From positions 27,289 to 91,288 of the forward strand of contig CADBHB010000001.1 in assembly GCA_902794395.1 (NCBI GenBank): DNA of 64,000 nt, in the 5' to 3' direction. Both the position numbers and the translations under genes were made by a program. The stretch comes from an uncultured Ruminococcus sp. GTDB taxonomy: Bacteria > Bacillota > Clostridia > Oscillospirales > Acutalibacteraceae. Below, piece by piece: positions 8,937 to 60,237 of this stretch. The notes beneath the pieces were generated by a model. The model was not told the origin of the DNA, made no database searches, and was given only the letters and a program-made list of their open reading frames with translations. Each line of letters starts with the position of its first letter. Position 1 is the first letter of the stretch.

Positions 8937-10388
8937 ATGAATTATTCTATCAAAGAAATAAAAGCCCGCCTGCAGGCTCAGTTTTCCGACTCGGCAGACC
9001 TCACGGTGCGCGAGCTGACCCTGAAATCATCCGGCGAGGTACGGGCGGCGGTGTTCACCCTAGAGGGCATGGTGGACAAGGAGGGGCTTGCGCAGGCGGC
9101 GCTGAATCCACTGCTCGCCTATGATTTCGGGCGTCAGACCGCGGCGCAGGCATACTGCACCATCCGCGACTCGGTGCTTGCCGCCTCGGACGTTACCGAG
9201 ATAAGTGAAACGGAGCTTACAGCCTTTCTCACCTCGGGCTTTGCCGTGCTGGCGGTGGACGGAGCGCCTGAGCTGCTTGCAATCGGAGCGCAGGGCTACG
9301 CCTTCCGAGGCGTTTCGGAGCCGGAGAGCGAGGTGGTGCAGCGCGGCGCCCGCGAGGGCTTCACCGAGCCGCTTAGGGTAAATATGTCCCTGATACGCCG
9401 CCGGCTGAAAAGCCCCGATCTGGTTTTTGAACAGATGACGGTGGGGAAGAAGTCGCGCACTCAGCTTATGCTCTGCTATTTGCAGAGCGCCGCCTCGCCG
9501 CTGCTCCTCCAAAAGCTCAGGGACCGCCTGCGCGCCTGCGACCTTGAAACCGTTCTGGCGGCGGGGTATCTTGCCGAATATCTCGAAGACCCCAACACCA
9601 GCCGCCTGTTTTCGGGGGTGGGTATCTCCGAGCGCCCCGACACCGTCTGCGGCAAGCTCACCGAAGGGCGCATAGCGGTCATAGTAGACGGCACCCCCGC
9701 GGTGCTGGTGGTGCCGCATCTTTTTGTGGAGGAGTTCCAGGGGGTGGACGACTACTCCAACCGCACCTACTACGCCACCCTCATCCGCCTGATAAAATAC
9801 CTCTCGTTCTGTGTTTCTGTCTTTCTGCCCGCCGTATACACCGCTTTGGCGCAGTTCCATCCCGAGTACTTTCCCACCTGGATCCTGATAAAGACCTCAA
9901 ATTCTCTCTCAAAGACCCCTCTGCCCGTGACGCTCGAGGTACTGCTTATAACCTTTGTCTACGAAATAATGAAGGAGGCGGGGCTGCGCATACCAAAGTC
10001 GCTGGGGCACGCGGTCAGCATAGTCGGCGCGCTGGTCATCGGCGAAAGCGCGGTCACGGCGGGCATCATCAGCTCGTCCACCCTGATGGTGGTGGCTACC
10101 GCGGCGATCTGCAGCTATGTCACCTCGCCGCTCTATCCGCCCGTAACTATGCTGCGGCTTGTATTTATAATCATCGCGGGCGTGCTGGGACTGTGGGGGA
10201 TAGTACTGGCGTCGGCGATGGTGATGATAAGCCTCTGCGCCAAAACCTCGCTCGGCGTGCCGTACCTGTCGTCGCTGTCACCGTTTTCGCTGCGCACTAT
10301 GCGTGACGTCTTTGTGCGCGCCGGCTGGAAGCGGCTGTCGCGGCACACCATCAAGGTACAGCATTTTGCGGAAACGGAGGAAAGGTAA
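8937..10388 (+). CDS. Spore germination receptor subunit A (GerA/SpoVAF family)
   Basis: Subunit A of a germinant receptor complex in the spore inner membrane. The 483-residue protein has the family layout: a soluble N-terminal region to about 280, then four to five membrane segments. These include the diagnostic SVFLPAVYTALAQFHPEYFPT (about residues 290-310) and LRIPKSLGHAVSIVGALVIGESAVTAGIISS (about 350-380). A soluble tail with SLSPFSLRTMRD follows. An AGGTGAT ribosome-binding site precedes the ATG. The B subunit gene overlaps its stop (TAATG). A forespore (sigma-G) promoter is expected; I could not identify one with confidence. Confidence 0.9.
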   Translation: MNYSIKEIKARLQAQFSDSADLTVRELTLKSSGEVRAAVFTLEGMVDKEGLAQAALNPLLAYDFGRQTAAQAYCTIRDSVLAASDVTEISETELTAFLTSGFAVLAVDGAPELLAIGAQGYAFRGVSEPESEVVQRGAREGFTEPLRVNMSLIRRRLKSPDLVFEQMTVGKKSRTQLMLCYLQSAASPLLLQKLRDRLRACDLETVLAAGYLAEYLEDPNTSRLFSGVGISERPDTVCGKLTEGRIAVIVDGTPAVLVVPHLFVEEFQGVDDYSNRTYYATLIRLIKYLSFCVSVFLPAVYTALAQFHPEYFPTWILIKTSNSLSKTPLPVTLEVLLITFVYEIMKEAGLRIPKSLGHAVSIVGALVIGESAVTAGIISSSTLMVVATAAICSYVTSPLYPPVTMLRLVFIIIAGVLGLWGIVLASAMVMISLCAKTSLGVPYLSSLSPFSLRTMRDVFVRAGWKRLSRHTIKVQHFAETEER

Positions 10389-11437
10389 TGCGCACGGAGG
10401 TAAAATTCTCATCCAAAAGATTTTTGATGACGCTCACGCTCTGCGCCTGTTCGGTCATCCTGCTTCAAAACGGCAGCCTGCCGCAGCGCTCGTCCTTTCT
10501 GTGTCGGCTTGCGGCTATGGCGGCGGGGCTGCTCGGCTGTTTCTTGATATTTCTGCCGTCTATATGGCTCAGAAAGCGCGGCGGCGACGTTTTTTCGCAA
10601 AGCCTGCCGCGCGCGGCGCGGTATGCGGCAGCGGCGGTCTACACAGCCTGCTTTTTCTACACGGCGGAATATTTTCTGTTTCCGTACACCGACATGTTCT
10701 GCAAAAAATACTACCCCGACACCTCGCCCTGCGTCATAGCGCTTATCCTGCTTATATGTTGCGTGTACGCTGCGCTCAGGGGCGCAAACGTCATCACGCG
10801 GTTCAGCGTTTTTCTGTTCGCGCTGGCTATGCTCACCAACCTGCTTATGTTCGGCGGCAGCCTTTCCTCGCTGCGTTTTTACTCCTCCGACTTGGGTATT
10901 CGCGGCGGCTTTTCCGGCTTTAGCCAAAGCTTCCTGTATTTTCTCACGCCCTCCTTCACGGCGGTGCTCTTTGCCTGCCTTTCGGGATACACGCGCAATT
11001 TCCGCCTGCGACAGCCCGTGATCGCGCTGGCTCTCACCGGAGTAAAGTACGCGCTGGTGCTGTTTTTCATAGCCTTCGCGGTGGGCGAGTACGCCCTGCG
11101 CCAGGAGTACCAGACCTTTGTGCTGTCGCGCGTGGCACATTTCGGTGCTTACGCGGGTATCGAGAGATTTTATATGGCGCTGAGCACCATGTCGGTGTTT
11201 ATGATAGTTTCGCTGCTGCTGTGCGCCATGTGCCGCAGCGTAGACCGCAACGGCAGCCGCGGCTTTACCGCCGCCTTCACCGCGGCGATTTTCGGCGCGC
11301 ATATGCTTGCGGTGTACCGACCCGAGGTGCGCGAGTTTTTTACCTCGCCTCTGCTGTTGGTCGGCTTAAGCGTCCTAACGGCTGCGATCATACCGTCTGT
11401 AATGCTTATTTTCACAAGGAGGGGGCATAATGTCTAA
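10388..11437 (+). CDS. Spore germination receptor permease subunit B (GerB family)
   Basis: Polytopic APC-superfamily transporter-like subunit of the germinant receptor that binds the germinant. The 349 residues contain about ten hydrophobic segments and lack soluble domains, as usual for the family (about 360 residues). Its ATG overlaps the gerA stop by one base and its own end overlaps gerC by eight bases, so all three are translationally coupled. Sequence conservation in this family is low; the assignment rests on topology, length and position between A and C subunits. Confidence 0.85.
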   Translation: MRTEVKFSSKRFLMTLTLCACSVILLQNGSLPQRSSFLCRLAAMAAGLLGCFLIFLPSIWLRKRGGDVFSQSLPRAARYAAAAVYTACFFYTAEYFLFPYTDMFCKKYYPDTSPCVIALILLICCVYAALRGANVITRFSVFLFALAMLTNLLMFGGSLSSLRFYSSDLGIRGGFSGFSQSFLYFLTPSFTAVLFACLSGYTRNFRLRQPVIALALTGVKYALVLFFIAFAVGEYALRQEYQTFVLSRVAHFGAYAGIERFYMALSTMSVFMIVSLLLCAMCRSVDRNGSRGFTAAFTAAIFGAHMLAVYRPEVREFFTSPLLLVGLSVLTAAIIPSVMLIFTRRGHNV

Positions 11438-12011
11438 AAAACTGCTGTTGATTTTGTTAATCATGCCGCTGGTGTTCTCGGGCTGTAAAAATTCTCACCG
11501 CGTCGAGACCGCCGCCGTTATCGAGAACGTCAGTGTGGAGCGGCAGAACGGGCAGCTCTGCTACACCTTCTACCTGCTTACCGAAGAGGAAACTCCCAAC
11601 GCCGTCAGCATACCCGCGGACTCCTTTCAAGAGGCGCAAAAGCTGGCGCGCCGCTCGTATATCCCGAATTTAACTCTTGCTAAGCTGAAGCTGCTGCTTA
11701 TCCACAAGGATGTGGTTTCGGAAATATTGCAGACCGATATTGAATATATATCCACACAGGCGTCCTTTTCGCCCGTGGCGTATGTGGCGCTGTGTGACGA
11801 CAACGCGCTGCGTCGGGTCAGGCAAAACACCCGCGCGCAGACGATGATAGAGCGCCAGCTCATCCTCTGCAAGCAGCAGCACCCGCAGGTCAACATCGAT
11901 TATCTTTCGGTTTTCAACAGCTACGCCCGCAAAAACGAGGACGGTTTTTATCTGCCGTATATCACCGCAGAGGGGGATCTGCGCGTTTCAGAGCGAAAGA
12001 TTGAAAATTAA
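11430..12011 (+). CDS. Short GerC-type germination lipoprotein
   Basis: Lipoprotein subunit of the germinant receptor. The signal peptide ends in a lipobox (LVFSGC, Cys19), and the body resembles the N-terminal domain of GerC: TAAVIENVSVERQNGQLCYTFYLL and later ASFSPVAYVALC. At 193 residues it is about half of the usual 360-400, and the C-terminal domains of GerC are missing. The stop is followed by AT-rich non-coding DNA, with no continuation visible in the other frames. It may be a naturally short subunit or a truncation. Confidence 0.75.
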   Translation: MSKKLLLILLIMPLVFSGCKNSHRVETAAVIENVSVERQNGQLCYTFYLLTEEETPNAVSIPADSFQEAQKLARRSYIPNLTLAKLKLLLIHKDVVSEILQTDIEYISTQASFSPVAYVALCDDNALRRVRQNTRAQTMIERQLILCKQQHPQVNIDYLSVFNSYARKNEDGFYLPYITAEGDLRVSERKIEN

Positions 12012-30412: not shown

Positions 30413-30446
30413 AGGTTTGTCATAACTACAATACAGGTGATTGAAT

Positions 30447-32261
30447 TTGATAAAAAAATACAACGCAATCAAAAACTTCGACCAGGACGTATCCACCTCC
30501 TTTGTCAAAGGCGCCGCTATACTCACCATCAGTATGGTGATCGTCAAGGTGTTCGGTTTGTTCAATAAGATCGTCCTCACCGCCATCTTCACCGAGTGCG
30601 GTGTCGACGGCGACATGGCGTCCTTCGGCATGGGTCTGTACGCCAACGCCTACGAGCTTTTTGTCGTTATTTTCACCGTCGCTACGGGCGGACTGCCCAT
30701 AGCCATATCGCGTCTGGTGGCGGAAAACATGACCCAAAAGCGCTACAAGGACGTGCGGATGATACACAGGATCTCCGTGCCCTTCTTTACGATAATGGGT
30801 CTGGTGTGTTTTCTTATCATCGTCGGAGCCAGCGTGCCGTACACGCGCTATGTTATCAATTCCCCCTACGCGGTCTACGGTATGCTCTGTTTGGCGCCCA
30901 CGGTGTTTTTCGGCTGCCTTGCCTCAGCCTACCGCGGCTACTACGAGGGACAGCGGAACATGTTCCCTACGGCGGTGTCGGAGATCATCGAGGCGGTAGT
31001 CAAGCTCGTGGTCGGCTCCGTGCTGGCTTACGGCATCCTTATCTGGGGCTTGAAATCGGAAGCCGCCACCCACACCTTCCTATGGTTTGACTTTACCAAC
31101 GCGCCCCGAGGCGAAGCCCACCGCACCATTTTGGCGCTGTCGGTTTCGGGCGCTATCATAGGCATCTCGCTGAGCAGTATGCTCTCGTGGCTCTACTACT
31201 TCCTGAAATTCAGGCTCCAGGGCGACGGCATCCCCAAGGAGTACTACGAAAACTCCATCGACGCCCGCGAAAAACGCGAGACCTTTATGACCATCATCAA
31301 GACCGCGCTGCCCATCGCCGGCGGAGCGCTGGTAATGAGCCTCGGCTCATGGATAGACTCTATCATCATCCAAAACGTGCTTGTGAACCTCGCGCACGAC
31401 CACGGTCCCGAGCTGGAGCATCAGTATCACCGCTTCTACTCGCCCGACACCTTCAGAGGCAAGGACATCACCATACACACAAATCTCTGGGGCTGTTACG
31501 CAAACGCCCTTACATTGATGCAGCTTGTCACCGCGGTAACGCAGGTGTTCGGTTCTTCGGCTATGCCTAACGTGACCAGCGCGTGGACAAAGGGCAATAA
31601 GCAGGAGCTGCGCCAGTCTGTCAACACCGTGCTGAAGCTCACAATGATGTTCACCCTGCCAATGTCCTTCGGACTCATCGTGCTGGCGCATCCCATCATG
31701 GGCTTGGTGTTCGGCAGAAGCCCCGCCATAGTCGAGATCGGCGGCAACATCCTCTCGGTAATGGGCATCACCACTATCTTCACCGCGATAATCACGCCTA
31801 TCTGCTCCATGATAAACGGTATAGGCAAGGTCAAGATACCCATGATACTCTACACCATCTGCATGCTCGTCAAGATCGGCACCTCATGGATATTCGTCAG
31901 CATCCCCGCCATCAACGTGCAGGGCGCCACAGCCGGTTCGCTGGTCTCCTACGCGCTTATCTGCGTTATCGGAATGTTCCTGCTAATAAAGTACAGCGGC
32001 GTGGTTCCGGACTTCTTCTCCACCACCATCAAGCCCCTTGTAGGCGCGGTTTGCAGCTCCGCGGCGGCGTACTTCGTCAACCGCATGCTGGCGCCTTCAA
32101 TGAACATGCGCCTGTCCGCAATAGTCTCCATCCTTGTTGCGGTGGTAGTTTATGTAGCAGTTTTACTAATAATTCGCACCTTTAGTGCAGAAGAAATCAA
32201 ATTTCTTCCAAAAGGCGAAAAAATCGCAAAAACACTTGAAAAATTGCATCTTATTGGGTAA
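30447..32261 (+). CDS. SpoVB/YabM-family polysaccharide flippase
   Basis: MOP-superfamily lipid-linked oligosaccharide flippase of the SpoVB/MurJ-like group. The protein has 604 residues and about 14 membrane segments. It includes FVKGAAILTISMVIVKVFGLFNKI, which is the N-terminal signature, and APTVFFGCLASAYRGYYEGQRNMFPTAVSEI, also typical. It heads the mazG-hup-rqcP-yabP-yabQ-divIC-yabR block, which matches Bacillus yabM upstream of yabN. I prefer the TTG at 30447, seven bases after AGGTG, to the one at 30441. A role in spore cortex or cell-wall precursor export is inferred from family and position. Confidence 0.88.
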   Translation: MIKKYNAIKNFDQDVSTSFVKGAAILTISMVIVKVFGLFNKIVLTAIFTECGVDGDMASFGMGLYANAYELFVVIFTVATGGLPIAISRLVAENMTQKRYKDVRMIHRISVPFFTIMGLVCFLIIVGASVPYTRYVINSPYAVYGMLCLAPTVFFGCLASAYRGYYEGQRNMFPTAVSEIIEAVVKLVVGSVLAYGILIWGLKSEAATHTFLWFDFTNAPRGEAHRTILALSVSGAIIGISLSSMLSWLYYFLKFRLQGDGIPKEYYENSIDAREKRETFMTIIKTALPIAGGALVMSLGSWIDSIIIQNVLVNLAHDHGPELEHQYHRFYSPDTFRGKDITIHTNLWGCYANALTLMQLVTAVTQVFGSSAMPNVTSAWTKGNKQELRQSVNTVLKLTMMFTLPMSFGLIVLAHPIMGLVFGRSPAIVEIGGNILSVMGITTIFTAIITPICSMINGIGKVKIPMILYTICMLVKIGTSWIFVSIPAINVQGATAGSLVSYALICVIGMFLLIKYSGVVPDFFSTTIKPLVGAVCSSAAAYFVNRMLAPSMNMRLSAIVSILVAVVVYVAVLLIIRTFSAEEIKFLPKGEKIAKTLEKLHLIG

Positions 32262-58275: not shown

Positions 58276-58310
58276 GGAGAAGCCGAGCGCTCGGCTTCTC
58301 CCGTTTTTTT
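58276..58310. terminator. Bidirectional terminator between purD and spo0A
   Basis: A 26-bp perfect palindrome (58276-58301) is followed by T's at 58304-58310. It is preceded by an A run (58265-58270), which gives a T tract for minus-strand transcripts. It ends both purD and spo0A messages. Confidence 0.95.
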
Positions 58311-59076
58311 AGGATGCGTTTTTGATTTGCAGTCTGAGCCTGTCGGCTATCATGGCGATAAACTCGCTGTTGGTCGGCTTGCCTCTGTCGTTGTGGATGG
58401 TGTAGCCGAAATACGAGTTCAGCACGTCAATATCGCCTCTGTCCCATGCCACCTCTATGGCATGGCGGATAGCGCGCTCCACCCTTGACGAGGTGGTGTC
58501 GTATTTTTTGGCTACAGCGGGGTATAATTGCTTTGTTACGGCGTTTATGACCTCGGGGCGCTCTACCGACATTATTATCGAGTCGCGCAGATAGTGATAA
58601 CCCTTGATGTGCGCGGGTACGCCTATCTCGTGCAGTATTTCAGTCACCCGCATCTCCAGCCCAAAGGCGTCCACGCTTACGGGCATACGCAGCAGACGGT
58701 CGTTTTTGCGCGTCATCATCACCACGGTCTCGCAAAGCTGCTCTACCTCAAACGGCTTCAGCATAAAATACCCGGCGCCGCTGTTCATTATCTCCCGCTC
58801 CAGCACAGCGCTGTGGAAGGAGGAGAACACTATGAAAAGCGGTTGGCTTATATTTTGTCGTTTAATGCTGCGCATAACGCCTATGGCGTCCAGCCGCGTC
58901 ATAAACGATTCCATCAGCACCACGTCGGGCTGCTCCTGCGCGATGCGGGCGCAAAGCTCCTCGCCGTCCTTTGAACAAAAGGCGGGCAAAATATTAAATT
59001 TTTGAAACATTTCCAGCGACTCTCTGTCAAATTCGGCAGCGTCCTCGGTGATCATCATCTTAATGCTATTGTCCAT
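58309..59076 (-). CDS. spo0A: Sporulation master regulator Spo0A with Glu at the phospho-acceptor site
   Basis: Response regulator that switches on sporulation. 255 residues from the ATG at 59076 (GGGAGA seven bases upstream). The C-terminal DNA-binding domain is well conserved: [32 protein letters not shown] and [16 protein letters not shown]. The N-terminal receiver keeps an acidic pair as ITED, the Thr/Ser position as FSSF and the Lys in YFMLKPFE. The phospho-acceptor motif, normally LDxxMPxLDG, reads [13 protein letters not shown], so the acceptor Asp is Glu56 (codon 58909-58911). This should block normal phosphorelay activation or mimic it. spoIVB lies upstream, as in most spore formers. 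Confidence 0.94.
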
Positions 59077-59110: not shown

Positions 59111-59139
59111 ATATTACCACAAAATGGCAAAGTTGGCAA
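59111..59139 (-). promoter_or_regulatory. Sigma-A promoter with extended -10 for spo0A
   Basis: On the minus strand TTGCCA (59139-59134), 17-bp spacer, TAATAT (59116-59111) preceded by TGG. It lies 35 bp upstream of the start codon. I found no convincing sigma-H promoter; a TGTCAAT further up only loosely resembles a 0A box. Confidence 0.75.
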
Positions 59140-59223
59140 TAGTTTCCAAAGAATTTTTTTAAAATTTTTTCTGGAAAATCCCCTTTAAAAGCGATTATTG
59201 ACACAAAAACGCCATATATTGTG

Positions 59224-60237
59224 TTAACTGCGATAATTCGACACCATATTTTGCACTGTTACGCCATAGCCCTCGCAGGGATCGTTCAAGAAGACATGGG
59301 TCACAGCACCCGCCAGCTTACCGTTTTGCACCACAGGGCTGCCGCTCATGCCCTGCACTATACCTCCGCATTTTCCGATAAGCCGCCTGTCTGTAACCTT
59401 TATGACAAAGTTTTCATTATTTCGACTTCCCATGCCGCACAGCTTGGTTATCTCGGCGTCAAAGCACTCGGCTTTTTCACCCTCAACAGTGGTGTATATC
59501 TCTGCCTTGCCAACTTTTATCTCACCGTTCTCCGCAAGCTCAAGCTTCATGCCGTCGTGAGAAAAATTGTCGTCTGTTGTCCCAAAAACGCCGCAGTTGG
59601 TGTTTTTTGTCAAATCTCCGAGAGGCTTGTCGCTGAAATACCCGTTAAGGCATCCCGCTCTGCCTGTGCTGCTTTTGGTCACGGAGCTAATATCTGCCTT
59701 TACCACCTCGGCGCTGCCCAGCGGCAGCAAAGCCTGAGTGTCCTTGTCGCAGATGCCGTGCCCCAGAGCCGCAAAGCTGCCGTCCTCCTCGTCGTAGTAG
59801 GTCACGGTGCCTATACCGGCGCAGCTGTCGCGCACCCACGCTCCCGTCAAATACACGCCCGCGCAGTTTTTTTGCGGGATGACGGTCTTTATCAGCTCCT
59901 TGCCTTCGCGCTCCACGGTCAGGCGCAGCGGAGCGCCGCCGCTGCCGCAGGTCGCGCGGGCAACATCCTCGTTGGTTTTCACATCGGTGTCGCCTATCTT
60001 TTTAATCACGTCGTTTACCTTCAATCCGCCTTCGGCGGCGGGACAGACGGTTTTTCCTTCGCTTTCAAAACATTCAAGCTCCACTACTATCACGCCGTCA
60101 TTGTAAAATTTTACGCCGAAGGGCTGTCCGCCCAGGGTGACGGTTTTGGCGGTTTTCGCCGAGGCAGGCGTTGCCGCCGCGTTTAATAGCAGTGACATCG
60201 AAAGCGAAACTATCAAAATTTTCGGGATTTTTTTCAA
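59224..60237 (-). CDS. spoIVB: SpoIVB serine peptidase
   Basis: Forespore-secreted S55 protease that signals to the mother cell, releasing SpoIVFB from BofA control. The 337 residues have an N-terminal signal/membrane segment (6-25), a PDZ domain (about 65-115: GGLKVNDVIKKIGDTDVKTNEDV) and the peptidase domain. The peptidase shows GIGTVTYYDEEDGSFAALGHGI with the catalytic His and GGIVQGMSGSPVVQNGKLAGAV with the catalytic Ser. The start is a TTG after AAGGAGGTG. It precedes spo0A by 147 bp. A sigma-G promoter is expected in the 168-bp AT-rich gap before it, but I could not place one. Confidence 0.95.
   Translation of the reverse strand: MKKIPKILIVSLSMSLLLNAAATPASAKTAKTVTLGGQPFGVKFYNDGVIVVELECFESEGKTVCPAAEGGLKVNDVIKKIGDTDVKTNEDVARATCGSGGAPLRLTVEREGKELIKTVIPQKNCAGVYLTGAWVRDSCAGIGTVTYYDEEDGSFAALGHGICDKDTQALLPLGSAEVVKADISSVTKSSTGRAGCLNGYFSDKPLGDLTKNTNCGVFGTTDDNFSHDGMKLELAENGEIKVGKAEIYTTVEGEKAECFDAEITKLCGMGSRNNENFVIKVTDRRLIGKCGGIVQGMSGSPVVQNGKLAGAVTHVFLNDPCEGYGVTVQNMVSNYRS

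Follow-up and report, generated by a model that had tools for sequence, protein, structure and literature searches.

A Spo0A ortholog with glutamate at the phospho-acceptor position, maintained in a clade of mostly uncultured Ruminococcus

The spo0A gene lies beside spoIVB on the reverse strand of the window, by which we mean the whole stretch of 64,000 nucleotides analyzed here (Table 1). Its product is by sequence family an ortholog of Spo0A, judging from the TIGR02875 score and from the combination of a receiver with a Spo0A_C domain, and the same model is matched by 83 of 83 A1 members at E <= 1e-30. The original prediction had described the DNA-binding domain as almost canonical, which the Spo0A_C match bears out. 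The genome to which the window belongs (G000) is an assembly of 2.2 Mb in 51 contigs that is 99.3% complete, and it contains a single Spo0A_C match, that adjacent to spoIVB; a second Spo0A_C paralog that might have replaced Spo0A was looked for in this genome and none was found. Distant second Spo0A-like proteins, with around 25-38% identity, are found in many members of the genus, such as those encoded at G392 C125:1038-1802 and G361 C15:265772-266497. Elsewhere in the window, the germination genes at 10388-12011 are weak matches (20.6 and 44.7 bits, below the cut-off), with a short Ger(x)C-like protein of 193 aa, and positions 30441-32261 encode a 606-aa MurJ/SpoVB-like flippase whose SpoVB match reaches 150 bits against a cut-off of 372.

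Table 1. Features of the spo0A region, in window coordinates, with the basis on which each was assigned
Feature	Position	Strand	Basis
spo0A CDS, 255 aa, aspartate-less Spo0A ortholog	58309..59076	-	TIGR02875, 265.6 bits (cut-off 200)
Spo0A_C DNA-binding domain, residues 144-247, near canonical	58336..58647	-	159.7 bits
PF00072 receiver domain, residues 11-118	58723..59046	-	38.4 bits (cut-off 30.2)
Lys107, conserved pocket lysine, present in 16/16 E-clade sequences	58756..58758	-	residue tally
Ser85, Thr/Ser switch position, retained	58822..58824	-	alignment and residue tally
Codon of the acceptor, GAA for Glu56 (canonical Spo0A: Asp)	58909..58911	-	codon reading and alignments
Residues 17-22, with E-clade-specific acidic Asp17 and Glu22	59011..59028	-	residue comparison
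Acidic residues Glu11 and Asp12, retained in the phosphorylation pocket	59041..59046	-	residue tally
Putative sigma-A promoter of spo0A, TTGCCA - 17 bp - TAATAT	59111..59139	-	by eye
Degenerate 0A-box-like site TGTGTCAAT	59197..59205	-	interval of the relatives' TGTCRAA core
spoIVB, adjoining spo0A upstream, same strand	59224..60237	-	TIGR02860, 314 bits (cut-off 305.25)

The window Spo0A is without the phosphorylatable acceptor aspartate that defines the canonical switch. The presence of glutamate in its place, which had been proposed earlier, is confirmed both by the codon and by a phmmer alignment in which Glu56 pairs with the Asp of the solved Spo0A receivers 1dz3 and 5wq0. The domain remains recognizable as a receiver and resembles the Asp-less receivers or pseudo-receivers in missing its acceptor. 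The slot is not filled by another aspartate, since Asp63 (128/128 genus loci) and Asp51 (120/128) are common to Asp- and Glu-bearing proteins alike, and a relocated acceptor is thereby ruled out. A read error, chance or a misalignment is also ruled out, given that 16 of the 128 genus loci carry Glu, that 15 of these fall into one clade together with a named record and that both Glu codons are used.

The comparison within the genus was based on 150 genomes, 145 of which gave a match, and 128 orthologous loci were aligned; G260, G376 and G374, genomes that yielded just fragments without the acceptor column, and genomes with only weak paralog matches were left out. Named loci were represented by the best 80 of 583, and these overlap with the unnamed loci. 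The acceptor residue is Asp in 111 of the genus loci, Glu in 16 and Asn in one. Fifteen of the 16 Glu loci, together with the named record L121 (RUG081), form a single clade of 16 sequences, referred to here as the E clade, which has a support of 96/80 when codons 17, 22 and 56 are excluded from the DNA tree and whose sister group consists of three Asp species of the same genus; the tree rules out L046 as a basal intermediate. Glu is found at the acceptor in 16/16 E-clade sequences with no reversal, and it is encoded by both GAG (11) and GAA (5), indicating that it has been kept through silent changes. The change noticed in the original prediction is lineage-specific and maintained. The E-clade genomes are mostly from uncultured organisms; among those with names are RUG13014, RUG196 and RUG11254, MAGs of the RUG series, which derives from rumen. 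The sixteenth Glu locus of the genus is L119, and only 3 of its 259 residues, the acceptor among them, distinguish it from its Asp sister L206.

Two further peculiarities of the receiver that had been singled out turn out to be genus background. Of the 128 genus loci, 118 have Thr for Pro after Met (MT for MP) and 83 have Glu as the first acidic residue, 27 of the 29 near Asp relatives being among the latter; family-wide, among 285 sequences, the two are found in 132 and 134, respectively. Within the E clade, all 16 sequences retain Ser85, and 12 have Asp and four have Asn at the second acidic position.

By evolutionary criteria the Glu receiver appears to be still in use. The pN/pS values for the receiver and the DNA-binding domain are 0.224 and 0.059 in the E clade and 0.245 and 0.065 in the 29 Asp relatives, ratios that are rough because many Asp pairs approach saturation at synonymous sites (receiver dS is finite in 152 of 406). 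Where the DNA-binding domains have diverged to the same degree, Glu receivers show the smaller divergence in all four bins that hold both groups. The idea of a decaying spo0A is unsupported, as the receiver pN/pS is like that of the Asp relatives, and the suggestion that the receiver might simply be inert is weakened by this same constraint.

The sporulation system is, as had been anticipated, not obviously dead. Among the 15 E-clade genomes, SpoIIE is matched at 334 bits or more in 13, SpoIVA above its cut-off in 12 and as fragments in a further two, SASP in ten, a SigK-like protein at 277 bits or more in 13 and DpaA in 14. These searches covered 77 genomes for SpoIIE, SpoIVA, Spo0E and HisKA, 50 for SASP and SigK, and 27 for SigF and DpaA, and gaps in the sporulation genes are also seen in Asp relatives and in incomplete assemblies. 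SpoIIE, SigF and DpaA gave no match above the curated cut-off in either the Glu or the Asp group, and the SigK cut-off was passed by one match among the 50 genomes. The window's own genome carries SpoIVA, SpoIVB, DpaA, two SASP genes and, besides a SigK-like protein, other sigma factors of the sporulation type. A full-length SpoIIE, which 13 of the remaining 14 E-clade genomes possess, was not found in it; G299 is likewise without a SpoIIE match in the search of E-clade genomes. When G000 was searched with the neighbors of the G308 spoIIE gene, two were matched, on separate contigs, with no SpoIIE beside them. In two genomes the sigK-like gene occurs in two pieces (G223 C1:211717-212067 and 227303-227641; G279 C3:66606-66935 and 80035-80391), which lie 13-15 kb apart, as if split by a skin-type element.

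The number of histidine kinases gave no clear correlate of Glu: HisKA matches are found in 77/77 genomes, with medians of six in the 15 Glu-clade genomes and seven in 30 near Asp genomes. Spo0E-like phosphatases were found in 0/77 genomes, Asp- and Glu-bearing alike, and loss of Spo0E is consequently uninformative as a correlate.

The regions upstream of spoIIE were compared in ten E loci, from among the 13 E genomes with spoIIE, and in nine Asp loci. In all of them (10/10 and 9/9) the sequence GACAAA is followed by TAYAAT, with 21 bp from GACA to TAYAAT, an arrangement that arises in around 0.04% of single-base shuffles. A reverse-strand TTTTGTAGAA site is also present upstream of spoIIE in 10/10 E loci, compared with 4/9 Asp loci. 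An exact TGTCRAA core was found in none of these upstream regions except for one inside a coding start, so the spoIIE boxes are non-consensus. Promoters of the Spo0A-activated class have a displaced -35 element and an overlapping Spo0A site, and the spoIIE arrangement appears to match this class. With a Spo0A-type spoIIE promoter in the clade members, the output of the switch appears to be preserved there.

The spo0A gene itself is preceded by a putative sigma-A promoter, and a similar promoter block is visible in those E-clade loci that were inspected, with a loose form of the pattern matching 64 of 126 genus loci. Further upstream, where the window has only a degenerate box, many relatives carry TGTCRAA, a motif shown to be important for Spo0A binding (PMC3485338). 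Between -155 and -75 of spo0A this core is found in 1/15 E-clade loci, 19/29 near Asp relatives and 25/80 other Asp members of the genus, and in about 2% of shuffles; the count is made without L080 and L234, which have too little upstream sequence. In place of the core, TTGTCRTT is found in 6/15 E-clade loci and in 0/29 near Asp relatives. The core is also absent from 10 of the 29 near Asp relatives, including two of the three sister species (L048 and L058), so the change is not Glu-specific and may have arisen before Glu56 or independently of it; as a specific correlate of Glu, loss of the 0A box is only suggestive, and the Fisher p value for it takes no account of relatedness. The isolated Glu case L119 retains the core. 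The 0A boxes of B. subtilis spo0A are reported to be mainly repressive (PMC12090719).

Loss of the acceptor extends across the family. The sample from other genera was non-random, being made up of 109 loci that ranked highest by Spo0A_C score, 216 of 250 genomes having given a match. In the set of 285 distinct sequences, 247 have Asp at the acceptor, 27 Glu, seven Asn, two Trp, one Pro and one a gap. Changes between Asp and non-Asp number 15 on a 283-row tree, 13-14 on a 184-row tree and 14 on a third tree, and the first two trees each give nine Asp/Glu and six Asp/Asn changes. The starred branches of the 184-row tree alone force at least eight Asp/Glu and at least six Asp/Asn changes; many branches of this tree are weak, with 66 of its 181 inner branches below 80, and the origin counts rest on such trees. 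When counted from clades, there are 16 origins, made up of nine to Glu, six to Asn and one Trp/Pro lineage, a figure to which L307 (Glu) and L017 (Asn), although joined as a pair, contribute one origin each; the maximal non-Asp clades number 15. Under simple single-base mutation models, the probability that 15 of 16 origins lead to Glu or Asn is 4e-6 to 3e-5, and that of at least nine Glu origins is 1e-4 to 7e-3. The acceptor has been lost in 17 of 128 loci in the genus and in 10 of 109 in the sample of other genera, compared with 2.0% (3,111 of 152,269) reported for receivers in general in PMC12632262, a comparison that is rough because the other-genera sample is the top of a score ranking.

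The sequences with Trp (L257 and L262) or Pro (L152) at the acceptor are all without the pocket Lys, and both Trp genomes (G054 and G173) retain SpoIVA, SASP and SigK-like genes. The pocket Lys has also been lost from 25 of the 247 sequences that keep the acceptor Asp (L016, L024, L027 and others), and these are possibly pseudo-receivers by another route. When loss of the acceptor was compared with loss of the pocket Lys by independent pairs, few of the pairs were informative. Among sequences from named, non-MAG sources, that of Lachnoclostridium sp. MSJ-17 (L129) is an Asp relative, and the isolate HV4-5-B5C (L153), deposited as DSM-104463 (PMC5887030), bears Asn.

In several respects the window protein mirrors the canonical Spo0A of Bacillus and Clostridioides (TIGR02875), with which it shares its architecture, a near-identical DNA-binding domain, an upstream spoIVB and, in its relatives, a Spo0A-type spoIIE promoter. 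However, the Glu at its acceptor means that textbook phosphotransfer to Asp is unavailable there. The acceptor Asp is described as conserved in Spo0A (PMC11210211, PMC3416734), and its phosphorylation as the start of sporulation in endospore formers (PMC11210211). Asp-less receivers are a known class, of which the window protein would be a Spo0A variant, sharing with them a receiver domain in which the acceptor is missing (PMC4395418, PMC12632262). Glu is the commonest replacement in this class, at 26% (PMC4395418). Here, in contrast, the loss is in the master regulator of sporulation, with the Lys and Ser retained, and Spo0A is not named as a natural Asp-less receiver in PMC4395418, which mentions it twice, or in PMC12632262, which does not mention it. 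ChxR of Chlamydia trachomatis likewise has a natural Glu at the acceptor and is reported to bind DNA constitutively, but it belongs to the OmpR/PhoB subfamily, and its activity was not abolished when the Glu was replaced by Asp or Ala (PMC4395418). The developmental program of Epulopiscium has been called seemingly hard-wired, whereas the conserved residues of the phospho-acceptor domain in its Spo0A are said to be kept (PMC3416734). No description of a natural Spo0A without its acceptor was found in the open-access literature as accessed, most subscription papers lying outside the search.

As Spo0A and the spore genes are apparently in use without the acceptor, the cells probably enter sporulation by another route. 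The best explanation, to which we give about even credence, is a Spo0A that acts independently of phosphorylation, with Glu56 as a weak built-in phosphomimic and with control by abundance or a partner. Glu56 is not the Asp on which phosphotransfer depends; in such a mechanism it most likely acts, with the retained Lys107 and Ser85, as a weak phosphomimic that allows the receiver to dimerize and bind DNA with no kinase involved. The amount of Spo0A that is made or kept would then be the main determinant of entry into sporulation, and a partner at an altered alpha1 face would possibly tune its activity. Many response regulators can be activated in part by a Glu at the Asp position (PMC12632262). 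The Asp-to-Glu change alone is described as often insufficient for constitutive activity, with Spo0A named as an example (PMC4395418, citing Green et al. 1991), so that a contribution from further changes, in the receiver or the linker, would be needed. Against this explanation, the six Asn origins are not obvious phosphomimics, and they suggest that at least part of the pattern reflects release from phosphorylation rather than mimicry. Moreover, retention of the pocket residues is equally expected of a phosphate- or metal-dependent receiver, and the assembly from which the window comes gave no SpoIIE.

The alternative that survives best, which we consider rather unlikely, is a pseudo-receiver switched by a partner or ligand through its alpha1 surface and linker, in which Glu56 is merely tolerated and confers no constitutive activity. 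The Glu clade is indeed set apart by an acidic residue at position 22 (16/16) and Asp17 (15/16), where the 29 near Asp relatives mostly have Lys and Ser, and by Arg127 (15/16), Leu128 (15/16) and Met131 (13/16) in the linker. Of the 11 parsimony substitutions on its stem, ten are in the receiver, K22E and D56E included. Residues 17 and 22 are presumably located on helix alpha1, as expected from the receiver fold, and alpha1 is a kinase-docking face of receivers, so a change of partner is possible, but several other Asp-bearing branches, mostly longer ones, have as many or more alpha1 changes. Parsimony also places S17D one node earlier than the Glu clade, and the isolated Glu cases are without the clade's residue pattern. 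The Asn origins, which are hard to call phosphomimics, are in keeping with this alternative, and both ligand and partner control are listed for pseudo-receivers in PMC12632262.

It is improbable that Glu disables Spo0A and that the pathway is being lost. The failure to find SpoIIE in G000 or G299 and the lack of an SASP match in 5/15 E-clade genomes would accord with fading sporulation, but the constraint on the receiver is unrelaxed, the sporulation genes are kept, and missing matches are seen in Asp genomes and incomplete assemblies too; in addition, the presence of spo0A and the sporulation-gene score are reported to be concordant in 1343 of 1358 genomes (PMC8340488). Natural drift, with Glu and Asp interchangeable in species that need little Spo0A phosphorylation anyway, is quite improbable: it would account for the near identity of L119 and L206 in closely related species, and for Asp-bearing sequences without the pocket Lys, but not readily for the fixation of Glu in a large clade without reversal. 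We regard as very improbable a phospho-control retained through another residue, such as a neighboring Ser/Thr, or through a phosphorylated Glu, as although the pocket residues are kept and most E-clade members have Ser at position 57, L036 and L037 have Ala there, and no precedent in Spo0A was found in the open-access literature as accessed.

Genomes that keep their sporulation genes and a constrained receiver without the acceptor make it possible to ask, in a testable way, whether phosphorylation is needed or is just one route to active Spo0A. The Glu/Asp pair L119 (genome G359) and L206 (genome G330), with three differing residues, represents a natural near-isogenic experiment. How pseudo-receivers work has been called a mystery (PMC12632262), and the repeated origins provide replicates for this open problem. 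Extending the explanation of a phosphorylation-independent Spo0A to the family, we suggest tentatively, and with somewhat less than even confidence, that phosphorylation-free control of sporulation evolved repeatedly, by about nine Asp-to-Glu changes, taking Spo0A from kinase-driven to level-driven in spore formers of the gut and rumen. If this is true, a core and supposedly universal feature of the initiation of endospore formation would be dispensable in nature.
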